From Burkholderiaceae bacterium (lineage in GTDB: Bacteria; Pseudomonadota; Gammaproteobacteria; Burkholderiales; Burkholderiaceae_E): 42,688 nucleotides of DNA. The notes beneath the pieces are model-generated. The model was not told where the DNA came from and ran no database searches. It was given only the letters and a program-made list of their open reading frames with translations. Position 1 is the first letter of the stretch, and each line of letters starts with the position of its first letter. A program made the translations under genes and the position numbers. The DNA lies in assembly GCA_023384005.1 (NCBI GenBank), contig JAHDXY010000008.1, forward strand, positions 1 through 42,688, written 5' to 3'. Positions 7,220-21,102 of this stretch are shown one piece after another.

Positions 7220-8207
<988 letters not shown>

Positions 8208-8242: not shown

Positions 8243-9865
8243 TCAGGCCAGCGTGAATGGGCATTCGATCATGTCGAAGGGGTCGTACTTCAGACCCCGC
8301 GCAAGGCGGATGACGCCGATCACCTCGCCCGCCGTTGCGTACACCTTGACCGCGTCGATGATCGCCGGCATCAGGTTGAAGCGGTCGCCCTTTCGTGCAT
8401 CCGTGTGCAGGCGGCGCAGGCTCGCTTCGATCGCCGCCGTGTCGCGTGTCTTCTTCCACTGCGCCATCCTGCGCGCGATCTCGCCCGGCTCTGCCGCGTG
8501 GAGCTCCTGCACCGGAACCTCGAACAACTCGTCCTGCTGCGCGATCGCCAGGTGGTTGACGCCCACGACCAGGCGCTCTTTGCTGTTCATCTCCCGGAAC
8601 TTGATGTTCGCCTCTTCCCTGAGCATCGACTCGATGTGCCCCTGCTCGATCGCCGCGACCAGACCGCCTAGCGAGTCGATCTCCTCGAGGATGCGGTAGG
8701 CCGCAGCCTCGACCTCGTTGGTGAGGCTCTCGACGAAGTACGACCCGGCGAGCGGATCGGTCACGTCGGCGACGCCCGATTCGACCGCGACGATGTGCTG
8801 GGTGTTCAGCGACATGCGTGCCGCGAGCGCAGAGGGCTCGGCGTAGGCATTGTCCAGCGTCGCGTTGTCGATCGCGGTGCAGCCGACCATCGCGCCGGCG
8901 AGCGTCTGGATCGCGCAGCGCGCGACGTTGTTTAGCGGCTGCTGGTAGGTCATCGTGCGCCCGGAGGTGTGCACGGCGATCAGCAGCTGGCAGGACTTCT
9001 CCTTCTTCGCGCCGAACTGCTCCTTCGCCATCCGCGCCCACATTCGGCGCAGCGCGCGCACCTTGGCGATCTCCTCGAAGAAGCGCGACCCGATGCTCAC
9101 GAGCTGGTACGGAACGCGCATCGCGTCGTCGAAGTCCAGTCCGCGTTCGTTGATCAGCCGTGCGCAGATCTCCTTGAGCATCGAAAGCTCGACCGCTAGC
9201 GCCTGCGCGTTGTTGCCGCCCGATTCCTGGAAGTGCTGGCCGACCAGGCCGCTGCGCATGCGGATGCCGTTGCGCACCACGTACTCCGCGGCGTCGAGAA
9301 AGAGCTTCATGTTCAGGTCGAAAGGCTGCACGTCGGTCTGGCCGAAGGCGTTGCCGAACGGCGATTCGGTGACGCTGCCGTGGACTTCGCGGGGATCGAT
9401 TCCGCGCTTCTCGGCCAGCGCCACCACATAGGCCAGGCGAAGCGTCGATGGCGCGCAACAGCCGAGCAGCGTGATCGACTGTCCGGTCAGCGGGATGTCC
9501 TGCATCAGTTCCTCGAACTCGAGCAAGGAGCTGCCAGGCCAGCCGAGGATGCCGTTTTCGTGGCGCGCCAGCGGATGATCGGCATCGATGCACGACGAGG
9601 AAACCCGGTCGTGGATCACGCACATGCCGCCGGTCTGACCCATCTCGCGGTATTTCTTCAGGGCCTTGTTGGCATCGCTCGACGTGCCCAGTCCGGCGGT
9701 CATCCTTCTGGTCCACATCCGGTTGCGGTAGCCGTTCTCGTGGTAACCCCGGGTGTAGGGAAAGCGCCCCGGATCGCCGATGTCGCGTTCGTAGTCCAGC
9801 CCCGCTATGTCGCCCGGGCCGTAGACCGGCTTGATCTGGTAGCCGTAGTCGGTAGCGCGTTTCAT
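8243..9865 (-). CDS. Acyl-CoA mutase large subunit, divergent (methylmalonyl-CoA mutase superfamily)
   Basis: The 540-residue TIM-barrel subunit would, with the B12 subunit, move a group between adjacent carbons of an acyl-CoA by a radical mechanism. Superfamily marks are clear: YTRGYHENGYRNRMWT, QTGG, TYQQPLNNVARCAIQ, SLNTQHIVAVESGVADVTDPL GSY and NLMPAIIDAVK. Several substrate-side motifs differ from methylmalonyl-CoA mutase by hand alignment. The usual FDLPTQxGYDSDHP loop reads IHDRVSSSCIDADHP; the PSMR segment whose arginine holds the methylmalonyl carboxylate aligns with LNMK; SGYHxxEAG reads VGQHFQESGG, keeping the histidine. So the substrate is probably not methylmalonyl-CoA. The start overlaps the stop of the PaaK-like gene by four bases. 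No MeaB-type chaperone gene is nearby. Confidence 0.88.
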   Translation of the reverse strand: MKRATDYGYQIKPVYGPGDIAGLDYERDIGDPGRFPYTRGYHENGYRNRMWTRRMTAGLGTSSDANKALKKYREMGQTGGMCVIHDRVSSSCIDADHPLARHENGILGWPGSSLLEFEELMQDIPLTGQSITLLGCCAPSTLRLAYVVALAEKRGIDPREVHGSVTESPFGNAFGQTDVQPFDLNMKLFLDAAEYVVRNGIRMRSGLVGQHFQESGGNNAQALAVELSMLKEICARLINERGLDFDDAMRVPYQLVSIGSRFFEEIAKVRALRRMWARMAKEQFGAKKEKSCQLLIAVHTSGRTMTYQQPLNNVARCAIQTLAGAMVGCTAIDNATLDNAYAEPSALAARMSLNTQHIVAVESGVADVTDPLAGSYFVESLTNEVEAAAYRILEEIDSLGGLVAAIEQGHIESMLREEANIKFREMNSKERLVVGVNHLAIAQQDELFEVPVQELHAAEPGEIARRMAQWKKTRDTAAIEASLRRLHTDARKGDRFNLMPAIIDAVKVYATAGEVIGVIRLARGLKYDPFDMIECPFTLA

Positions 9866-11184
9866 GACTTGTCCCTGAGAAGGACGCGCTGCGCCTTCGC
9901 TTCATAGCGCGGCAGCGAACCCTGTGGATGACACTCGACCGGAACCCTCAGGCCCAGCCGGCTCGAAAGACCGCGCGCGACCGCCGCGGCCAGCCCCTCG
10001 CGATCGGCGTCGTAGGCCGACTCGCACTCGATCGCGACCACCATCGAATTCGGCGAGCCGTCGACGGTGTCGACGTAGATCTGCCAGGCCTCCTTGATCG
10101 TGCCTGCGACACCGACGATGACATCCTCGACCTGCGACGGAAAGACCAGTACGCCGCGCACCTTGAGCATGTCGTCCGAGCGACCGATGATGCGACCGAG
10201 GGTCGGCATGCCGTGACGGCCGCATTCGCAGTCAAAGGGGCGATTCGACAGCCGCACCAGGTCGCGGGTTCTCCAGCGCACGACCGGCGAGGCCTCCTTG
10301 TCCAGCGTGGTGACCACGATCTCCCCGACCTCGCCGGGCCCGACCGGAGCGAGCGTGACCGGGTCGAGGATCTCGGTGAGTACCGTGTCCTCGTTGATCA
10401 GGTGCATCTCGTCGCGGGCGTGGCTGTGAGGACAGGTCGCGCCCACGTTCGGTCCGCCCGACTCGGTGGTGCCGTAGACGTTGTAGGCGCTGAAACCCTC
10501 GGGCATCTCGCTTTCGAGCTGCTCGCGAAAGGCGCGTGACACGGACTGCCCGCCGATGATCACGCGGCGAATCGCCCAGTCCTTCTTTGGATCGATGCCC
10601 TGGTCCCGGGCCACCCGCAACAGATGCGCCAGGAACAGCGGCGAGAGCGTCGCCGCATCCCAGGCCAGATCGCGCAACCACTGGACCACAAGTTCGCTGC
10701 GCCCCGGGCCGATCGGGAAACAGGTCGCCCCCAGCTTCTCCAGGCCAAGGTCGTGCGAGGGGCCGCCTAGCCACAGCCCGTATCCGAAGCCCTGATAGAC
10801 CCTGTCGCCGGGGCGAATGCCGATGCAATGCAGCTGTCGCGCCACCTGGACCGCGAGCAACTGGTTCAGGTCCCTATGCGTGAACCCGAACAGCACCGGC
10901 AGGCCCGTCGTTCCGGAGGTGGAGAAGAAGCGGCTGACGCGGGACACGTCGACCGTGAGCATCGGGTAGGGGTAGCGCGCCCTCAGGTCCGACTTCTCGA
11001 GTGTCGGCATGCTGACCAGCCCGTCGGCCGCCGCCAGGTCCCGCGGGTGCATCCCGGCCTTGGCAAAATGCTGGCACCACTCGGGCGACGCCGCCAGACG
11101 CTCGCCCAGCGCGGCCAGTTTGCGCGCCTGCAGCGCCTTCATGTCGTCGCGGTCCAGCGTTTCGATCTCGGGGTGCAGCATCAT
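9862..11184 (-). CDS. Phenylacetate-CoA ligase family enzyme (PaaK-like)
   Basis: The 440-residue adenylate-forming ligase is of the PaaK type, expected to make an acyl-CoA from an aryl or other carboxylate, ATP and CoA. Motifs include FFSTSGTTGLPVLFGFTHRD (ATP loop), YGTTESGGPN (adenine-binding motif), RTRDLVRL, a small Cys cluster CECGRHGM, and IIGRSDDMLKVRGVLVFPSQVE in the C-terminal domain. It overlaps the mutase start by four bases (ATGA), so product and mutase substrate are probably linked. It lies 51 bases after the TetR gene. The actual acid is unknown. Confidence 0.9.
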   Translation of the reverse strand: MMLHPEIETLDRDDMKALQARKLAALGERLAASPEWCQHFAKAGMHPRDLAAADGLVSMPTLEKSDLRARYPYPMLTVDVSRVSRFFSTSGTTGLPVLFGFTHRDLNQLLAVQVARQLHCIGIRPGDRVYQGFGYGLWLGGPSHDLGLEKLGATCFPIGPGRSELVVQWLRDLAWDAATLSPLFLAHLLRVARDQGIDPKKDWAIRRVIIGGQSVSRAFREQLESEMPEGFSAYNVYGTTESGGPNVGATCPHSHARDEMHLINEDTVLTEILDPVTLAPVGPGEVGEIVVTTLDKEASPVVRWRTRDLVRLSNRPFDCECGRHGMPTLGRIIGRSDDMLKVRGVLVFPSQVEDVIVGVAGTIKEAWQIYVDTVDGSPNSMVVAIECESAYDADREGLAAAVARGLSSRLGLRVPVECHPQGSLPRYEAKAQRVLLRDKS

Positions 11185-11235: not shown

Positions 11236-11823
11236 TCAGGCGGGCTGCGCGCTGGCCACGATGCCGCGCAGGTAGATTCGCTTCACGTGCTCGATCAGCG
11301 CGTCACAACCGACCGGGCCTTTCGGGTCGTACCAGTTGTTCAGGCCGTTGACGATCGACAGCAGCGAGAACGCCGCGACGCTCGGATCGAGACGCGCGAG
11401 TTCGCCGCTGTCCATCCCGCGCGCGAGCACGCCGCGCAGCGCGTCGAGGTAGCGCCGCTCGAGGCGGACGATCTTACTGCGACGAGGCGCCGACAGGCGC
11501 GTCATCTCGAGGTTCAATACGGTGAGCCGCTCGGGATGCGCGTGGAAGAACCTGACGTGGGCCTCGATGACGGCCGATAACTGCCGTTGCGGATTGGCGT
11601 CTCCGGCGACGGCCTGCTCGACGTCGTCGAGGATGGCGGCGACGGATTCGGCGCAAATCGCTTCGAGCAGGTCCTCCTTGCCGCGCACGTGGTAGTAGAG
11701 GCCGGCCTTGGTGAAACCCGCTGCCGCGGCCAGCTCGTTCACGCTGGTCGCGGCGTAACCCTTGCGCGAGAAAAGCCGTGCGGCGGCGTCGAGCATCTGC
11801 TCCCTTCTCGGGTCGCGCGCCAT
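11236..11823 (-). CDS. TetR/AcrR family transcriptional regulator
   Basis: The 195-residue regulator begins MARDPRREQMLDAAARLFSRKGY. The N-terminal helix-turn-helix is clear (TSVNELAAAAGFTKAGLYYHVRGKEDLL, about 26-54), followed by an all-helical ligand-binding domain. I start at ATG 11823 with an upstream GAGG; the track frame to 12315 is antisense to the acyl-CoA synthetase. A perfect palindrome lies 22 bases upstream of the ATG, so autoregulation of a tetR-paaK-mutase-B12 operon is likely. An acyl-CoA or free-acid ligand is plausible from context. Confidence 0.92.
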   Translation of the reverse strand: MARDPRREQMLDAAARLFSRKGYAATSVNELAAAAGFTKAGLYYHVRGKEDLLEAICAESVAAILDDVEQAVAGDANPQRQLSAVIEAHVRFFHAHPERLTVLNLEMTRLSAPRRSKIVRLERRYLDALRGVLARGMDSGELARLDPSVAAFSLLSIVNGLNNWYDPKGPVGCDALIEHVKRIYLRGIVASAQPA

Positions 11824-11844: not shown

Positions 11845-11856
11845 GACCGATCGGTC
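11845..11856. promoter_or_regulatory. Perfect 12-bp palindrome GACCGATCGGTC, probable TetR operator
   Basis: It lies in TTGACCGATCGGTCTACTAAT, 22 bases before the tetR start codon, within the likely promoter or 5' leader. GACCG-type palindromes of this form are common for TetR regulators of acyl-CoA metabolism (recalled, not checked). Confidence 0.65.
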
Positions 11857-11898
11857 TACTAATCTAGGCGATCGTCCAAGCGCTGTCAACCGGCGCGC

Positions 11899-11948: not shown

Positions 11949-13484
<1,536 letters not shown>

Positions 13485-13513
13485 CGCAGGTCGTCCCGAA
13501 GCCGCGGGTCCCG

Positions 13514-15499
13514 CTACCAGCCCGGCGGACGCGAGACGGTGATGTGCGGGGCGACCTCCTCTTCGGTCGGCACCCAGTCGGGAACGATCAGCTTGCCGAG
13601 CGGATGCACCTGGTGCGCGCCGGTGCCTTCGGGAAACCCCTTCTTCGACAGCCTGGCGCGCAGCTTCTTGGTCGCCTCGTGGTCGATCCGGTAGTCGCAG
13701 GCCTCGGCATCGACGACGTCGATCACGACCCCGTAGTAGTCGCGCGCCGCCTCGGCGCTCAACCACTCGTCCATGACGTCGACCCGCACCAGTTCGGGCT
13801 CGCGTTCGAGCGGATTGCCGAATCCTCCCCCCCCGGCGGACGAGTAGAAGATGCGGTCGCCCGCCTTCAGTTCGATGCCGGTCGCGTACATCCCGGCGTT
13901 GAGCTCGCGCTTCGTGCCCTTGTTGATGATCAGCATCGAGCCGCCGCCGTTCAGCCCACCCGCGAAGCCGAAGGGCGTGAACTTCTCGCGATCGCCGTGG
14001 ATCGTCATCGTGACGTCTGTGAGCACGGTCATCTCGCGCACGAGCCCGAAGCCGCCGCGGCGCAGGCCGTGCCCGCAGCTGTCCATGCGCGCCTCGTAGG
14101 CGTTGAACACCACCGGGAACCAGCGCTCCTCGAGCTCCTGCGGGATCGTTCGCGCGTTGCAAAAGCGCATGAAGATCAGCGACTTGCCGTCCTTGAATGT
14201 CCGCGCGTTCTCGCCGCCGACCGCGTAGGTGTACTGAACGAAGGGCTTCTTGGTGCGCGGATTGAAGCCGCCCATGCAAAGGTTGGTCAGGCTGACCGAC
14301 GCGGGGTAGACGCGCCACGGCTGCACCTTGCCCATCGGCCCTGCCAGGCAGGCGATCGTGACCGCTTCGACCTTGTCGAATGCGCCCGAGCAGTAGCCGG
14401 TGGTCGGCGTCGGAAACTCGACGTGCACGCAGGTGCCCGGCTTGGACTTGACCTCGAGGTTGCGGATGATTCCGTGGTTGAGCGGAAACAGCTGCGGAAA
14501 GCAGATCATGAAACCGAGATAGTTCCCGCCGATCAGAACCGCGCGGCTGCCGCCCCAGGACGCCCGCGGTTGCGGGTCCGAGTCGGTCCAGTCGAACGAC
14601 AGGCTCGTGCCCTTCTTCGTCAGCTTGCAGTGCACGCGAATCGGAGGCTTTCCTTCCGCCATCACGTCCTGGTCGCCGAAGTCCTCGAACTCCCACTCGC
14701 CATCGGGCAACTCGGCGAGTTCGGCCAGCATCAGGCGCTCGCTGTAGTTGAACTGCTCCTCGAAGGCCAGTGCCAGCGTCTTCCTGCCGTATCGCTGGCA
14801 CAGCTCCTTCACCCGGCGATCGATCAGTCGCGAGGCCTCGAACTGCGCGCGCAGATCGGCGCGGCGCTCGACCGCGCCACGGATATTGATCTCGATCAGG
14901 CTGAACAGTTCCTCGTTCAGCTCGTCGTTCACGAACAGCCGGATCGGCGGGATGCGGATGCCCTCGGCGTAGCACGAGGTGGCCTCGGGGTTGAACGTCC
15001 CGGGCATCGGCCCGCCCATGTCGGCCCAATGGATCACCGTGCAGGCGAACGCGACGATCTCCGCGCCGAAGAAGATCGGGCGGATCATGCGCACGTCGTT
15101 GACGTGGCTCCCGGTGCGATACGGGTCGCTGAACAGATAGGTATCCCCGGGACGCATCGTGTCCATCGGGATGTCCTTCATCAGCTCCTGCACCGACGGC
15201 TCGAACGACGCGTAGTGCGCGGCCGCGTCGGTGTGGCCGTGCGCGACGAGCCGACCGTCGGGCGTGAGCAGGGCGTTGGAACGATCGCGTCCCATGCCGA
15301 TCACCGGATGGTAGGCGATTCGTTCGATCGTGTTCGAGGCCTCGTAGCAGGCGGCGACGAACGCGTTGCGCATCACCTCGAAGGTGATCAGGTCGAGCTT
15401 CATTCCGGCGGCGTGGCCCTTGCCCTTCGTGCCCTTGCCTTTCACGCTCGTGCCCTTGCCTTTCGCACCCTTGATCCCGGCTCTTTTCGTGCTTGCCAT
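13514..15499 (-). CDS. Hydantoinase B/oxoprolinase family subunit (HyuB-like)
   Basis: HyuB proteins pair with HyuA in ATP-dependent hydantoin or oxoproline hydrolysis, or in acetone/acetophenone carboxylation. The core starts at MKLDLITFEVMRNAF (Met33) and shows GMGRDRSNALLTPDGRLVAHG, FSDPYRTGSHVNDVR, IHWADMGG, GYCSGAFDKVEA and the glycine-rich YSSAGGGGFGNPLERE. Upstream of the core is a Lys/Gly-rich leader with KGKGT-like repeats (residues 9-29), which is unusual. The start at 15499 has an upstream GGAGAG, so the leader may be translated. It follows hyuA by ten bases. Part of this gene (13671-13730) recurs at 29109-29168. Confidence 0.92.
   Translation of the reverse strand: MASTKRAGIKGAKGKGTSVKGKGTKGKGHAAGMKLDLITFEVMRNAFVAACYEASNTIERIAYHPVIGMGRDRSNALLTPDGRLVAHGHTDAAAHYASFEPSVQELMKDIPMDTMRPGDTYLFSDPYRTGSHVNDVRMIRPIFFGAEIVAFACTVIHWADMGGPMPGTFNPEATSCYAEGIRIPPIRLFVNDELNEELFSLIEINIRGAVERRADLRAQFEASRLIDRRVKELCQRYGRKTLALAFEEQFNYSERLMLAELAELPDGEWEFEDFGDQDVMAEGKPPIRVHCKLTKKGTSLSFDWTDSDPQPRASWGGSRAVLIGGNYLGFMICFPQLFPLNHGIIRNLEVKSKPGTCVHVEFPTPTTGYCSGAFDKVEAVTIACLAGPMGKVQPWRVYPASVSLTNLCMGGFNPRTKKPFVQYTYAVGGENARTFKDGKSLIFMRFCNARTIPQELEERWFPVVFNAYEARMDSCGHGLRRGGFGLVREMTVLTDVTMTIHGDREKFTPFGFAGGLNGGGSMLIINKGTKRELNAGMYATGIELKAGDRIFYSSAGGGGFGNPLEREPELVRVDVMDEWLSAEAARDYYGVVIDVVDAEACDYRIDHEATKKLRARLSKKGFPEGTGAHQVHPLGKLIVPDWVPTEEEVAPHITVSRPPGW
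15413..15475 (-). repeat. Lys/Gly-rich coding repeat in the HyuB leader
   Basis: The coding strand encodes KGKGT-SVKGKGTKGKG from repeated AAAGGCAAGGGC-like units. It looks like a low-complexity expansion in front of the conserved domain. Such basic tails can be disordered or bind polyanions, but no function is shown. Confidence 0.6.
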
Positions 15500-15509
15500 G
15501 ATGCTCTCC

Positions 15510-17567
15510 TCAGCGGTCGACTTTGATGACCAGGTTGCCGTAGGCGTCGACCACGCAGCGTGTACGCGGCGGCATCACGGTGGTGGTGTCGGGCTGCTCG
15601 ATGATCGCAGGTCCCTTGAATCGCGCGCCAGGCGACAGCTTGCCGCGTTCGTAGATGTCGGTCAGCACGAAACCCGCGTCCTTGAACCACACCATGCGCC
15701 GGGGTTTGCGCGCGTCCTTGAGGGCGGACTTCGTGCGCAGCTCGTGCAGGTTCGGCTTCGGGATGTCGCCAAAGGCGATCACACGCAGGTTGACCACCTC
15801 GACCGGAGAGTACCCGGGCGGAAGCGTGTAGCCGTAGGCGCTTTGCATGTCGCGCGTGAAGCTCGCGGTGATTCCCTCGAGATCGCGGATCCGGCCCTTG
15901 GGCACGTCGACCGTGAAGAAGCGGCTTTGCGAGAAGTACTTGACGTCGGCCTTGCGTTCGATGCGGATCTTCGCGCGCGGCACGCCGTCGCGCCGAAGCA
16001 CGGCGACCGCGTTTGCGACCAGCTCGTCGAACTGGCGATTCAGCTCGCCGTAGTCCATTTCGTCGTCGGTCTTGTGGATGGCGCGGGTGAACTCGTGCTT
16101 CATGTCCACGCGCGTAGCGCCGAACGCCGACGCGTAACCGGGAAGGGGTGGAACGACGACGGTGGTCGAGCCGATCTCGCGCGCCAGGTCGCAGGCGTAC
16201 AACGCGCCGCCGCCGCCGTAGGGAACGATCGCGAAGTCGCGCGGATCCCAGCCGCGGCTCACGGTCTGGATGCGCATCGCCATCATCAGGTTGGCCAGTG
16301 CGACCAGGTACATGTTCGACGCGGCAGTGGCCGCGTCCCACCCGTAGCGGCTGCCGATCTTCGACTCGAGCGCCTTGTGCGAGAGCGTACCGTCGACCGT
16401 CATCTCCCCGCCCAGGAAGTACCCGGGGTCGATCCGCCCGAGGACGATCTGGCAGTCAGTGTTCGTTGCCTCCTGCCCCCCCTGTCCGTAGCAGGCCGGA
16501 CCGGGCACGGCTCCGGTGCTCTGCGGGCCAACGTTGAGGATTCCGCCCTTGTCGACCCAGCCGATCGATCCGCCGCCGGAACCGATGTAGACGGTGTCGA
16601 CCGAGGGCAGGCAGCAGGGCACGTTCCAGAGGATCTTCCACTCGTGCGTGATCGCGGGCTGGCCCTTGTAGATCATCGAAACGTTGTTGGTGGTTCCGCC
16701 GGTTTCGAAGGCGATCACGTTGTCGAAGCCGGCGAGGCCCCCGATGTACCCGGCCATGCCGACCGCGCCCGATACCGGCGACGAGTGGAAGGTCTTGGCC
16801 GGGAACTTCACCGCCTCGTCCATGCTGATCACCCCGCCGCCCGAGGTGGTGACGAGGATCGGGCCTTCGTAGTTCCAGTCCGTCTTCAGGCGCCGCGACA
16901 GCCCGCCGAGGTAGTTCTTCAGGATCGGGGAGATGTAGGCGTTGAGCACGGTCGTGCAGGTGCGCTCGAACTCGAGCATCTGCGGCAGCACTTCGTGCGA
17001 GAGCGTGACGTCGAGCTCGGGCACCTCCTCGCGCAGGATCTCGCGCGAGCGTTGCTCGTGCGCCGGGTTCATGAAGCTGTCGATGTAGACCACCGCGACC
17101 GATTCGATTCCGCGCTTGCGGCACTTGCGCGCCGCGGTGCGAACGTCTTCCTCGCTCATCGGCGTGAGCACTTCGCCGTAGGGGCTGACGCGTTCGCGCA
17201 CCGGCAGCACGTTGCGGCGCGGAACGATCAGCTCGGGCGGGTCCCAGTCCAGCTCGAAAGCCGAGATCCGCTCGGCGCGACCGCCACCGAGGACGTCGCG
17301 GAACCCCTCGGTGGTGATCAGCGCGGTCTTGACTCCCTTGCGCTCGAGGATTGCATTGGTCGAGACGGTCGCGCCGTGGCGAAACGACATCACCTCCTCG
17401 CCCGCGATGCCCGCGCGCCTGAGGCCGTCGATGACGCCGTCGAAGTAGGTCGGCGGCGTGGACGGCACCTTGCCCAGGCGCTGCTCGCCCGTTTCGAGAT
17501 TGATGCCGATCACGTCGGTGAACGTGCCGCCGATGTCGGTGCCTACGATCCAGTTTCGTTTCGTCAT
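15510..17567 (-). CDS. Hydantoinase A/oxoprolinase family subunit (HyuA-like)
   Basis: The 685-residue product has the ASKHA-type ATP-binding architecture of HyuA. The N-terminal phosphate loop is normal (GTDIGGTFTDVIGI, residues 9-22), then RHGATVSTNAILERKG and LPQMLEFERTCTTVLNAYI. GAGGGSI-like (GSGGGSIGWVD) and GPACYGQGG segments are present. The second domain motif, DMGGTSTDV in most relatives, reads ETGGTTNNV (about residue 287), which replaces acidic residues near the nucleotide or metal. Acetone and acetophenone carboxylase subunits are also in this superfamily, so a carboxylase role is possible. It lies between the binding protein and hyuB in one operon. Confidence 0.92.
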   Translation of the reverse strand: MTKRNWIVGTDIGGTFTDVIGINLETGEQRLGKVPSTPPTYFDGVIDGLRRAGIAGEEVMSFRHGATVSTNAILERKGVKTALITTEGFRDVLGGGRAERISAFELDWDPPELIVPRRNVLPVRERVSPYGEVLTPMSEEDVRTAARKCRKRGIESVAVVYIDSFMNPAHEQRSREILREEVPELDVTLSHEVLPQMLEFERTCTTVLNAYISPILKNYLGGLSRRLKTDWNYEGPILVTTSGGGVISMDEAVKFPAKTFHSSPVSGAVGMAGYIGGLAGFDNVIAFETGGTTNNVSMIYKGQPAITHEWKILWNVPCCLPSVDTVYIGSGGGSIGWVDKGGILNVGPQSTGAVPGPACYGQGGQEATNTDCQIVLGRIDPGYFLGGEMTVDGTLSHKALESKIGSRYGWDAATAASNMYLVALANLMMAMRIQTVSRGWDPRDFAIVPYGGGGALYACDLAREIGSTTVVVPPLPGYASAFGATRVDMKHEFTRAIHKTDDEMDYGELNRQFDELVANAVAVLRRDGVPRAKIRIERKADVKYFSQSRFFTVDVPKGRIRDLEGITASFTRDMQSAYGYTLPPGYSPVEVVNLRVIAFGDIPKPNLHELRTKSALKDARKPRRMVWFKDAGFVLTDIYERGKLSPGARFKGPAIIEQPDTTTVMPPRTRCVVDAYGNLVIKVDR

Positions 17568-17609
17568 TTCCCCGTCCTTCCCGTGTCTCTCGCGCTCGTG
17601 CCCGAACCC

Positions 17610-18533
17610 TTACTTCTTCGGCGGCATGTAGTCGGCCGCGTTCTCCTTGGTGGCAAGGATGTGCTTGATGAATACCTGGTCCTTCGGGCGGTTGCCCTTG
17701 AGCCAGCCGTCCATCACGTCCATTCCCATGCGCCCCCAGACCATCGGGCTGAGCACGATCGTGAGGTCGATTTCTCCCTTGGTCACCGCGGCGAGCGCCG
17801 GAGGAATTCCGTTGAGGCCGGTGATCAGGATCGAGCTCTTCTTGCCCGCCGCCGCGACCGCCTGCGCCGCGCCCAGCGCGAGTTCGTCGTTGCCGGCGTA
17901 GATGACGCGCACGTCAGGGTGCGCCACCAGCAAGTCCTCGGCCTGCTTGAGCCCCTGCTCGCGCGTGAGCGCGACCTGGTGCTGGAAGACGATCGGCATG
18001 TCCTTGTGCTTGGCGATCTCGGACTTGAAGCCGGCGGCGAGATCCTCGAACACGTTCGCGCCGGCCGGGCCCGCGATCATTCCGACCTTTCCCTTGCCGC
18101 CGGCTGCGCCGGCTGCCCACCCGGCGATATCGCGGCCGATCTGAACCGAATCCATCGCGACGAACAGCGACTGGTATGGCGACTTGGCACCGCGCGCGAG
18201 CGAGATGATCGGGATCTTTGCCTTGTGCGCCGCCTCGTAGGCAGCACCGGTGGCTACCGCGTCGATTGGCGAGATCAGGATCCCGTCGACCTTTTGTGCG
18301 ACCAGATCCATCACGCCGTTGACCTGCCGGCTCACGTCCTCGTTAGCGGTGACGACGCGAACTTCCCAGCCGAGCTCCTTGGCGCGTGCCTCTACACCGG
18401 CCCGCATGACGATGTAAAACGGATTCGTATCGGAGGCGAGCGCAAGCCCGACGACCTTCTTCTGCGCATGAACAGGCGCCACGCCAAGCATCAGCGTGAG
18501 CGCGCCCGCAAGGACGACCGCAATTCGTTTCAT
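17610..18533 (-). CDS. ABC transporter substrate-binding protein, RbsB type
   Basis: The 307-residue periplasmic binding protein has a signal peptide (MKRIAVVLAGALTLML, cleavage after VHA-Q). The fold is the sugar-binding type 1 family seen in RbsB: TNPFYIVMRAGVEARAKELGW, DGILISPIDA, IPIISLARGA, GKVGMIAGPAG and VRVIYAGNDELALGA. It delivers a small ligand to the membrane permease. Members bind sugars, polyols, autoinducer-2 and other ligands, so a non-sugar substrate is possible given the hyu and acyl-CoA genes downstream. It lies 122 bases after the permease gene; that gap holds a hairpin. Confidence 0.93.
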   Translation of the reverse strand: MKRIAVVLAGALTLMLGVAPVHAQKKVVGLALASDTNPFYIVMRAGVEARAKELGWEVRVVTANEDVSRQVNGVMDLVAQKVDGILISPIDAVATGAAYEAAHKAKIPIISLARGAKSPYQSLFVAMDSVQIGRDIAGWAAGAAGGKGKVGMIAGPAGANVFEDLAAGFKSEIAKHKDMPIVFQHQVALTREQGLKQAEDLLVAHPDVRVIYAGNDELALGAAQAVAAAGKKSSILITGLNGIPPALAAVTKGEIDLTIVLSPMVWGRMGMDVMDGWLKGNRPKDQVFIKHILATKENAADYMPPKK

Positions 18534-18575
18534 GGCTCTCTCCTTCGTTTCCGGGATCGTTGGTTGGATCGCGAA

Positions 18576-18598
18576 CGGGCCTTCGTCGCAACGGCCCG
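18576..18598. promoter_or_regulatory. Intercistronic hairpin CGGGCC-N11-GGCCCG
   Basis: A perfect 6-bp inverted repeat lies in the 122-base gap between permease and binding-protein genes. Such structures between permease and binding-protein genes often stabilise mRNA ends and adjust expression ratio; that role is inferred. Confidence 0.4.
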
Positions 18599-18655
18599 CT
18601 TCACGCTGACTTCACTTCGCTACCCTCTTTCAGCTTCCTTCTCACTGCCGCCTGC

Positions 18656-19624
18656 TCATCGCCTTCGCGTCTTCAGCTGATCGGCGGCGGCCGCGGCGAT
18701 GATCACCAGGCCGATCGCGATGCGCTGCCAGTACGAATGCACGTTCAACAGGTTCAGGCTGTTGGCCAGAACCACCATGATGAACACGCCGATCATCGAT
18801 CTGTGCAGTTTTCCCTCGCCGCCGCGAAGCGACGCGCCCCCAAGGACGACCGCGGCGATCGCGGTCAGTTCGTAGAACTCCCCGGCGGTCGGCTGGCCCG
18901 ACTGCAGCCTCGCGGCGAGCATCACGCCGGCGACTCCGGCCAGCGTTCCGCACCACGTGTAGGCCGACGCGGTGACGCGTTCGACGTCGATTCCGGCGAG
19001 AAAGGCTGCCTCGCGGTTGCCGCCGGTGGCGAACACGCGTTTGCCATAGGCGGTCAGGTGCAGCAGCCACCAGAACACCGCGAACAGCACGACCGGAAGC
19101 CACACGAGCAGGTGAACGCCAAGCAGCCTGCCGCGGCCGAACTCGATGAACGCGTCCGGCAAGCCCGAGTCGCCGACGATCGGCCGGCCGTCGGTGATCA
19201 GCAGCACGATGCCGCGCACGACCACCATCGTGCCCAGGGTCGTGATGAAAGGGTTGACCCGCAGCCTCGCGATGATCAGTCCGTTCACCCAGCCGACCAC
19301 GGCGCCGACGGCGATTCCCGCCGCCACGCCGAGGCTCCAGTGCGACTCCAGCATCACCCAGGCGGCAACCGTGCCGGAAAGCGCGACCGTGGAACCGACA
19401 GAGAGATCGAAACCGCCCGAGATCACGACGAAGGTCATCCCCATCGCGATCACCGCCATCACGCAGGCCTGAAGAAGGATGTTGTTCAGGTTGATCGGCG
19501 AGAGGAAACGGTCCGACAGCAAGGCCGTGACCACGCAAACCGTGACCAGCGCGAGCAGCGGAACCTGATCGCGCAATGCGCGCAGCACCGGATTGGACGC
19601 TTGCGTCGCGTGCCCCATCGTCAT
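18656..19624 (-). CDS. ABC transporter permease, RbsC type
   Basis: The 322-residue polytopic inner-membrane permease belongs to the ribose/branched-chain family (BPD_transp_2). Typical segments are FLSPINLNNILLQACVMAVIAMGMTFVVISGGFDLSVGS, then RLRVNPFITTLGTMVVVRGI, GGNREAAFLAGIDVERV (coupling loop facing the ATPase) and IAAVVLGGASLRGGEG. It forms the translocation path with the ATPase 19621-21102, overlapping it by four bases (ATGA), so the two are translationally coupled. Met3 is an alternative start. Confidence 0.95.
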   Translation of the reverse strand: MTMGHATQASNPVLRALRDQVPLLALVTVCVVTALLSDRFLSPINLNNILLQACVMAVIAMGMTFVVISGGFDLSVGSTVALSGTVAAWVMLESHWSLGVAAGIAVGAVVGWVNGLIIARLRVNPFITTLGTMVVVRGIVLLITDGRPIVGDSGLPDAFIEFGRGRLLGVHLLVWLPVVLFAVFWWLLHLTAYGKRVFATGGNREAAFLAGIDVERVTASAYTWCGTLAGVAGVMLAARLQSGQPTAGEFYELTAIAAVVLGGASLRGGEGKLHRSMIGVFIMVVLANSLNLLNVHSYWQRIAIGLVIIAAAAADQLKTRRR

Positions 19625-21102
19625 CCCGCCAGTGCGGCGCGCAACGCGCCTTCGCTGTACTGCGGCGAACCACGCGTCAGGCGCGCGACGATCTCGCCCG
19701 AGCGCATCGCGACCACGGTGTCGCTCATGTGCATCACCTCGGCCATCGACGAGGAGGCGAACAGGATCGCGCCGCCGCCTTCGACGAAATCGCGCATCAG
19801 GTGGTGGATTCGCGCCTTGGCGCCGACGTCGATGCCCTGGGTCGGTTCGTCGAGCAGCAGCGTGTCGACGTGACCGACCAGCCAGCGCGCGAAGATGACT
19901 TTTTGCTGGTTGCCGCCCGAGAGCTGGTTCACCGGCAGCGACGGATCGCGCGGCCGGATGTCGAGCGACTCCATCATCTGCCCGACCAGCCGATCGATCT
20001 GCGCGACATCGAGCCCGAACGCGCTCGAGAGCTTTTCGAGGTTGGGAAGTGCGATGTTGTCGCGCACCGACAAGCCCATCACGAGCCCCAGGCGGCGCTC
20101 CTCCGGTACCAGGCCGACGCCGGCGGCGATCGCCTGCGCGGGGCGCGAAAACCTGTGCGCCTCACCGCGCAGCGTGACCGTGACCGGTGTTGTCGCGGCA
20201 CCGAACACCCGCCGCAGCACCGCGCTGGTTCCGCTACCCAGCAAGCCCGCCAGTCCGCTCAGCTCGCCGCGGCGAACGGCGATCCCGCCCGCTTCGGCGC
20301 CGGTGTCCAGGTGCACCGGTCCGAAGCTCGATTCGTGCGGGCGTCGAAGCTCGTCCAGGTCGCGGCCGGTCATCCAGCGGATCAGGTGCTCGGCCTCGAA
20401 CTCACCCCTGCGACAGGTGGCGACAACGCACCCGTCGCGCAGGACCGTGCAACGGTCGGCCAGCGCGACGACTTCGTCGAGGCGGTGCGAGACGTAGATG
20501 ATTCCGACCCCGCGCTTCTTCAGTGCGGCGATCACCGCGAACAGGCGCTCGGCCTCGCGCGTCTCGAGCGACGCGGTCGGCTCGTCGAGCACCAGCACTC
20601 GAGCCTCGTGCATCAGCGCGCGCGCGATCGCGACGAGCTGGCGTTCGGCGAAGGACATCGCGTCGACGCGCGTGTCGAGATCGCGGTGGAAGTCGAGTTG
20701 CGCCAGGAGCCCGGCGGCGCGCCGGCGCATCGCGCGCGCATCCAGCACCGGCAGCACGCCGATTAGGCGCTTTTGCGGCCACGCGCCAAGGGTCACGTTC
20801 TCGGCGACGCTGGCCGAAGGGACCAGCTGCATCTCCTGGGGGATGACCACGATCCCGGCTTCGCGCGCCTCGCGCGGTCCGCGAAAGCGCACCTCGCGGC
20901 CGTCGAGCCGGATGTCGCCGGCATCGCGCGCCGTGATTCCGCCGAGGATCCTGATCAGCGTCGACTTGCCGGCGCCGTTCTCGCCGACGAGCGAGTGCAC
21001 TTCCCCGGCGCCCAGAGCGAAGTCGACCGCGTCCAGCGCCTGCGTCGCCGCGAAACGCTTGCACAAGCCTTCGATGACGAGCAGGGGATCTCCCGCCGCC
21101 AC
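19621..21102 (-). CDS. ABC transporter ATPase with two nucleotide-binding domains, RbsA type
   Basis: The 493-residue fused tandem ATPase energises the RbsC-like permease. The first domain has a good Walker A (GENGAGKST, 40-48) and Walker B (VLVLDEPTAS), but its signature is MSFAERQ instead of LSxGQxQ. The second domain has a degenerate Walker A (GLLGSGTSAVLRR) and a normal LSGGNQQK signature with LLLDEPTQGIDVGAK. This unequal arrangement is typical for the family, where one composite site does most hydrolysis. The start is GTG 21102, with GGGAGAG upstream. It is the first gene of the operon, 124 bases from the predicted transcription start. Confidence 0.94.
   Translation of the reverse strand: MAAGDPLLVIEGLCKRFAATQALDAVDFALGAGEVHSLVGENGAGKSTLIRILGGITARDAGDIRLDGREVRFRGPREAREAGIVVIPQEMQLVPSASVAENVTLGAWPQKRLIGVLPVLDARAMRRRAAGLLAQLDFHRDLDTRVDAMSFAERQLVAIARALMHEARVLVLDEPTASLETREAERLFAVIAALKKRGVGIIYVSHRLDEVVALADRCTVLRDGCVVATCRRGEFEAEHLIRWMTGRDLDELRRPHESSFGPVHLDTGAEAGGIAVRRGELSGLAGLLGSGTSAVLRRVFGAATTPVTVTLRGEAHRFSRPAQAIAAGVGLVPEERRLGLVMGLSVRDNIALPNLEKLSSAFGLDVAQIDRLVGQMMESLDIRPRDPSLPVNQLSGGNQQKVIFARWLVGHVDTLLLDEPTQGIDVGAKARIHHLMRDFVEGGGAILFASSSMAEVMHMSDTVVAMRSGEIVARLTRGSPQYSEGALRAALAG

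Follow-up and report, generated by a model that had tools for sequence, protein, structure and literature searches.

A divergent clade of B12-dependent acyl-CoA mutases associated with anaerobic aromatic-ring degraders

B12-dependent acyl-CoA mutases act by homolysis of adenosylcobalamin (AdoCbl), hydrogen abstraction and a 1,2-shift; to our knowledge only a handful of specificities have been found among them, and in the described substrates the groups are small or a second carboxylate is present. The carboxylate clamp of MCM consists of Tyr89 (in the motif RQYAGFS) and Arg207 (in VRNTY, 12 residues upstream of the PSMR segment), with residues numbered here as in P. shermanii MCM; Tyr89 and His244 are backed by the titles of mutant structures in the PDB and the other numbers were counted from motifs. 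Arg207 is kept in MCM (9/9) and IaaG (5/5), whose substrates have a second carboxylate, and is absent from HCM (Gln in 8/8) and from the PCM group (Asn or Leu), whose substrates do not. HCM (HcmAB of Aquincola and Methylibium PM1) is a two-subunit enzyme encoded together with MeaB and a PaaK-family ligase (PDB 6hdw). The PCM-group locus of Xanthobacter Py2 codes for a TetR regulator, a B12 subunit, a mutase, MeaB, a PaaK-type ligase, an AMP ligase and a branched-chain ABC transporter, and its Xaut_5043/5044 we take to be pivalyl-CoA mutase (PCM). PaaK-plus-mutase gene sets are thus already known from both the PCM-group and the HCM loci. An aryl-CoA mutase is known as well, the phenylsuccinyl/benzylmalonyl-CoA mutase IaaGH of anaerobic indoleacetate degradation in Aromatoleum (PMC8360864).

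The locus described here lies within the window, a 42,688-nucleotide stretch of DNA from a Burkholderiaceae bacterium (contig JAHDXY010000008.1), and comprises four minus-strand genes in the order tetR, PaaK-type ligase, mutase large subunit, B12-binding small subunit. The first gene of the operon (11236–11823, with its ATG at 11823) codes for a TetR-family regulator (TetR_C_24; PF00440/PF17932) and is followed by those for a 440-residue PaaK-type CoA ligase (9862–11184), the 540-residue large subunit (8243–9865) and a 139-residue small subunit with a GTG start (7788–8207). The end of the ligase gene and the beginning of the mutase gene share four bases (ATGA, 9862–9865), as the initial annotation had it. 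The large subunit scores 412 bits against PF01642 (cut-off 22) and 340 bits against TIGR00641, passing this mutase subfamily model, and the small subunit scores 84 bits against PF02310 and 108 bits against TIGR00640 with an intact DxHxxG motif (LDSHTTG). The mutase scaffold and catalytic histidine reported in that annotation are indeed there: His211 in the motif GQHFQES (codon 9235–9233) corresponds to MCM His244 and is kept in all 22 members of the clade described below, so that the pair belongs to the B12 mutase superfamily. The MCM equivalog model NF006944 is missed by a wide margin (279.5 bits, cut-off 876), as is the IcmF model (105 bits, cut-off 1500), and the large subunit is a separate chain with no G-protein fusion. 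Its closest solved relative by sequence is HCM 4r3u (273 bits), and the best fold matches of its AlphaFold (AF2) model, a mediocre one (pLDDT 74, with residues 25–58 and 334–369 below 50) from which no pocket geometry was drawn, are HCM 4r3u and MCM.

A scan of 84,980 species genomes returned 20 full-length orthologues, each in a separate genome and 67–86% identical to the window enzyme, after which the next match falls to 36%. Their hosts are Beta-, Alpha- and Deltaproteobacteria/Syntrophorhabdus MAGs. The window's own genome contains a paralogue on another contig (C151; 74% identical), and among 250 genomes of the same order no further orthologue was found beyond these two copies, so the clade is rare and patchily distributed. 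In a maximum-likelihood tree the 22 proteins form a clade with 100/100 support whose stem measures 2.1 changes per site, and MCM, HCM, the PCM group and IaaG are each recovered separately from it; a second tree to which IcmF was added agrees, and sets the clade apart from IcmF also. Together the trees cover these five groups of mutases; the loss of Arg207 described below argues against an ECM identity. The phylogeny called for in the initial annotation thus places the window enzyme on what appears to be an undescribed branch of the B12 acyl-CoA mutases, outside the MCM, HCM, PCM, IcmF and IaaG clades. A mutase encoded on a Paraburkholderia plasmid (L057, 14001–15584) branches at the base of the clade, although it has lost the catalytic histidine and its long branch may make this placement false. 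The same histidine is replaced (by Asp, Thr or Gly) in L057 and in two further long-branched sequences, L060 (69–1667, contig C449 of the window's genome) and L072 (6289–8010), which possibly have other chemistry or are alignment artefacts.

The altered motifs first reported for the open reading frame (TRGYHENGY, IHDRVSSSCIDADHP and DLNMK) are present, and the claim that positions contacting the substrate are changed holds throughout the clade. Invariant in all 22 members are Thr for Tyr89 (Thr56 of the window enzyme; codon 9700–9698), Ile for Ala116, Arg for Leu119, Glu for Asn198, Gln for Tyr243, Tyr for Ser285, His for Gln330, Arg for Trp334, Ala for Asn366 and Asn for Glu370, the last of these found only in this clade within the alignment. 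Arg207 is lost in 22/22, with Gln beside a one-residue deletion (or Gly in an alternative register), and the positions of Gln197 and Arg283 are hydrophobic or Thr. In the window enzyme the pocket is lined by Thr56, I84, H85, R87, Q176, Q210, H299, R303, A335 and N339. The initial annotation had singled out the change from PSMR to LNMK as the loss of the carboxylate holder; PSMR was the wrong segment and is rejected as a determinant of specificity, since human MCM itself has PSMK there, but the clamp formed by Tyr89 and Arg207 is indeed gone. MCM shares with the window enzyme the fold, the catalytic His244 and scaffold motifs such as FTRG, whereas the two are only 30% identical and Tyr89, Arg207, Gln197, His328, Gln330, Asn366 and Glu370 of MCM are all replaced. 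Because the same changes recur in 20 orthologues from separate genomes and in the paralogue, the divergence is not due to chance, and the residue columns suggest an acyl pocket that is rebuilt, opened at position 89 and free of the second-carboxylate clamp. Since loss of Arg207 tracks monocarboxylic substrates among the clades of known chemistry, these enzymes most likely take a monocarboxylic acyl-CoA as their substrate, although the newly acquired arginines R87 and R303 could hold a carboxylate in another way.

Two of the changes, additional to those of the initial annotation, fall at residues 366 and 370, which in MCM are presumably contacts to the adenosyl ribose, and they may entail altered or even weak activity. 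Replacement of the adenosyl ribose contacts N366, E370 and Q330, together with the long stem (2.1 substitutions/site), would also fit a degenerate enzyme that has lost mutase activity, its divergence reflecting relaxed constraint rather than a new specificity. We give this reading very little credence, as members of the clade are 67–97% identical to one another across three proteobacterial groups and the replaced residues are invariant in 22/22, which argues for strong constraint; the ligase, often MeaB and the B12 subunit are also retained, the small-subunit partners that adjoin the large subunit in orthologous loci being 52–74% identical.

HCM is the best sequence and structural match among the solved mutases, and it resembles the window enzyme in its two subunits, their similar length, the catalytic histidine and a Gln in place of Arg207, and in a locus that carries a PaaK-family ligase. 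A mutase of this type acting on an aryl hydroxy acid could interconvert 2-hydroxy-2-arylpropionyl-CoA and 3-hydroxy-3-arylpropionyl-CoA, or act on tropate- or phenyllactate-type acids, with the polar side chains H85, R87, H299 and R303 available to hold the hydroxyl group, and the MeaB gene of the HCM locus has counterparts at several loci of the clade. Nonetheless the two enzymes are only 33% identical and in separate clades, with Thr at the position of HCM Ile90, and Asp117, which binds the hydroxyl group in HCM, is Ile in 22/22, so that a 2-hydroxyacyl-CoA mutase is distinctly unlikely.

The ligase was likewise compared with the enzymes at known mutase loci. It reaches 272 bits against the PaaK equivalog TIGR02155 (cut-off 646), and thus belongs to the PaaK-like fold family without qualifying as PaaK itself; its best PDB match is the phenylacetate-CoA ligase 2y4o (233 bits). 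It is kept at 60–80% identity in 14 of the 20 orthologous loci, and the window-type ligases form a clade separate from the ligases of the HCM and PCM-group loci. The suggestion in the initial annotation that a PaaK-type ligase points to an aryl substrate proved weak, and the ligase is rejected as proof of one, since PaaK-family ligases are encoded at the HCM and PCM-group loci too. The PCM group itself has a Gln at Tyr243, no Arg207 and an aliphatic residue at 116, all in common with the window clade, and the Xanthobacter Py2 locus has the same gene kit. The main rival to an aryl substrate is therefore a mutase of pivalyl or isobutyryl type, in which an aliphatic branched-chain or alicyclic acid (one with a quaternary carbon, for example) is activated by the ligase, the mutase renders it accessible to β-oxidation, and the aromatic link merely reflects an anaerobic lifestyle. 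We consider this unlikely, though it is the alternative that weighs most. The window enzyme falls outside the clade of Xaut_5043, the two groups forming separate 100/100 clades with 31% identity and Leu rather than Thr at position 89 in PCM, and a PCM-clade mutase is encoded separately in the same genome (contig C500).

IaaGH resembles the enzyme proposed here in being a B12 mutase that acts on an aryl CoA ester in anaerobic aromatic catabolism (PMC8360864). Hydantoinase genes lie upstream of the window operon, hydantoinase B (15499–13514) at 3.6 kb from the mutase and hydantoinase A at 17567–15510, and could be likened to IaaC and IaaE, which would make the mutase an arylsuccinyl-CoA/benzylmalonyl-CoA enzyme of the indoleacetate or a similar dicarboxylate pathway. 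This is very improbable. IaaG keeps Tyr89 and Arg207 for the second carboxylate and forms its own 100/100 clade; the window hydantoinases A and B share just 35% and 25% identity with IaaC and IaaE, and their place next to the mutase is not conserved at other loci; and none of the hydantoinase, decarboxylating dehydrogenase and Mo-hydroxylase genes of the iaa operon is conserved with the window mutase. Searches for hydantoinase B adjoining a mutase moreover located a real iaa operon in the window's own genome (contig C382, with the other end of iaaG on C100) and in four other genomes, and IaaGH is rejected as the identity of the window enzyme. The claim of a new mutase specificity therefore has to be narrowed: the undescribed clade and its anaerobic benzoyl-CoA context stand, whereas mutases acting on aryl CoA esters have a precedent in IaaGH (PMC8360864).

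The hydantoinase genes, the AMP-dependent ligase gene directly upstream of the mutase operon (about 13484 to 11949) and the genes of a sugar-type ABC transporter (21102–17610), all on the minus strand, are not conserved beside the orthologues and are rejected as parts of the mutase system; together (11949–21102) they look like a separate lactam- or hydantoin-type catabolic operon. The genome as a whole is rich in mutases (contigs C382, C100, C500, C93, C449, C151 and C405/C104), with IaaG on two contigs, the PCM-group protein of C500, a type found on C93, the C151 paralogue, the divergent C449 protein and probable IcmF fragments. The C93 protein (L061, 8102–9637) forms with L035 and L049 a mutase clade that has no characterised member in the tree, is encoded beside an AMP ligase, and differs both in the RQYAGF motif, where SH takes the place of RQ, and at Tyr243, which is Gly.

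Two gene arrangements are present among members of the clade. In the first (type A), shared by the window and 14 other loci, the genes for the two subunits are accompanied by a PaaK-type ligase gene and usually a tetR gene, which adjoins the mutase at most of the orthologous loci; in seven, meaB is found next to these genes or among them. In the second (type B; contig C151 of the window's genome and L023–L025) the genes code for the large and small subunits, MeaB, a branched-chain-type ABC transporter, a FadD11-like AMP ligase, a phytoene-desaturase-type FAD enzyme, a TetR regulator and acyl-CoA dehydrogenases. All four type B contigs carry, together with the clade member, a four-subunit benzoyl-CoA-reductase-like set, enoyl-CoA hydratases and Oah. 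Oah and Had score above the curated cut-offs and the ring reductase subunits and dienoyl-CoA hydratase below them, so that the type B reductase may have a specificity of its own. This benzoyl-CoA-reductase-like enzyme (L059/L063 = C151; L087–L089), below all curated cut-offs and presumably with an aromatic or alicyclic substrate, is conserved together with the type B mutase and the FAD oxidoreductase of phytoene-desaturase type. The FadD11-type ligase and the cyclohexanecarboxyl-CoA-dehydrogenase-like enzymes of these paralogous clusters also fit the aliphatic or alicyclic acids of a pivalyl-type pathway. At one locus (L027) a second, different mutase (15246–17617; small then large subunit, with a TetR gene) lies 6 kb from the orthologue, and between the two are genes for an NADH:flavin oxidoreductase, a luciferase-like monooxygenase and an enoyl-CoA hydratase.

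Ahead of tetR in the window a promoter-like sequence, TTGACA-N17-TAGATT (11861–11889, minus strand), matches the consensus, and just downstream of it is an exact palindrome, GACCGATCGGTC (11845–11856), that constitutes a putative operator. In five Rhodocyclales loci (L015, L016, L017, L020 and L021), where a divergent meaB separates the ligase from the mutase, the motif TTGACCGNNCGGTC occurs twice with 0–1 mismatch, once upstream of each of these two genes. The site is found with at most two mismatches in 12 of 41 upstream regions, compared with 1.0 expected from mononucleotide shuffles, the loci being related to one another. This common motif suggests that a single regulator very likely controls both ligase and mutase, tying the two to one pathway.

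The window holds no gene of the benzoyl-CoA pathway, and the link to it comes from co-occurrence in genomes and from the contig of the paralogue. Matches to PF06050 (subunits of benzoyl-CoA reductase/2-hydroxyacyl-CoA dehydratase) are present in 18 of the 20 orthologue-bearing genomes and absent from the other two, compared with 20 of 399 genomes of the window's order (Fisher p about 2e-19). Oah (TIGR03200), a hydrolase of the same pathway, scores above cut-off in 18/20 versus 10/397 with the window's own genome excluded (p about 1.5e-22) and in 19/21 versus 11/398 with it included; these p-values are indicative, as the sampled genomes lack phylogenetic independence and orthologues from several classes are set against a background of one order, but the size of the enrichment is not in doubt. 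The clade is confined almost entirely to anaerobic aromatic-ring degraders, and so strong an enrichment of Oah and benzoyl-CoA reductase speaks against a pivalyl-type substrate. Most genomes of the order that have the pathway lack a mutase of this kind, which suggests that it serves an accessory substrate.

We put at about one in two the probability that these genes form a catabolic operon whose mutase acts on a monocarboxylic and probably aryl acyl-CoA and so feeds benzoyl-CoA. In such an operon the TetR repressor would sense the substrate or its CoA ester, and the PaaK-type ligase would join a monocarboxylic acid to CoA as its thioester. AdoCbl homolysis and hydrogen abstraction in the mutase, with His211 placed as His244 is in MCM, would then allow the CO-SCoA group to shift to the neighbouring carbon and yield the isomer, most likely an aryl-acyl-CoA that would be β-oxidised to benzoyl-CoA and enter the anaerobic benzoyl-CoA pathway. 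A pocket open at position 89, the missing carboxylate clamp, the association with the benzoyl-CoA pathway and a ligase resembling phenylacetate ligase together make an aryl-acyl-CoA the best candidate substrate. The simplest fit, offered as a conjecture that we would not favour over its negation, is conversion of 2-arylpropionyl-CoA to 3-arylpropionyl-CoA or the reverse. In the literature within our reach, subscription papers being mostly outside its scope, we found nothing usable on an anaerobic 2-phenylpropionate mutase or on a mutase of this kind.

The substrate of the clade is probably an aromatic acid that is isomerised by no known enzyme of this type. Somewhat tentatively, these could be the first B12 mutases to act on a neutral aryl-acyl-CoA (such as 2-arylpropionyl-CoA to 3-arylpropionyl-CoA), giving branched aromatic acids a hitherto unknown route into the anaerobic benzoyl-CoA pathway. 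A clade in which Tyr89, Arg207, Asn366 and Glu370 are all replaced provides a test of which residues the radical chemistry needs. An aryl ester substrate, if confirmed, would explain how branched aromatic acids are degraded anaerobically and would offer a catalyst for arylpropionate isomerisation.
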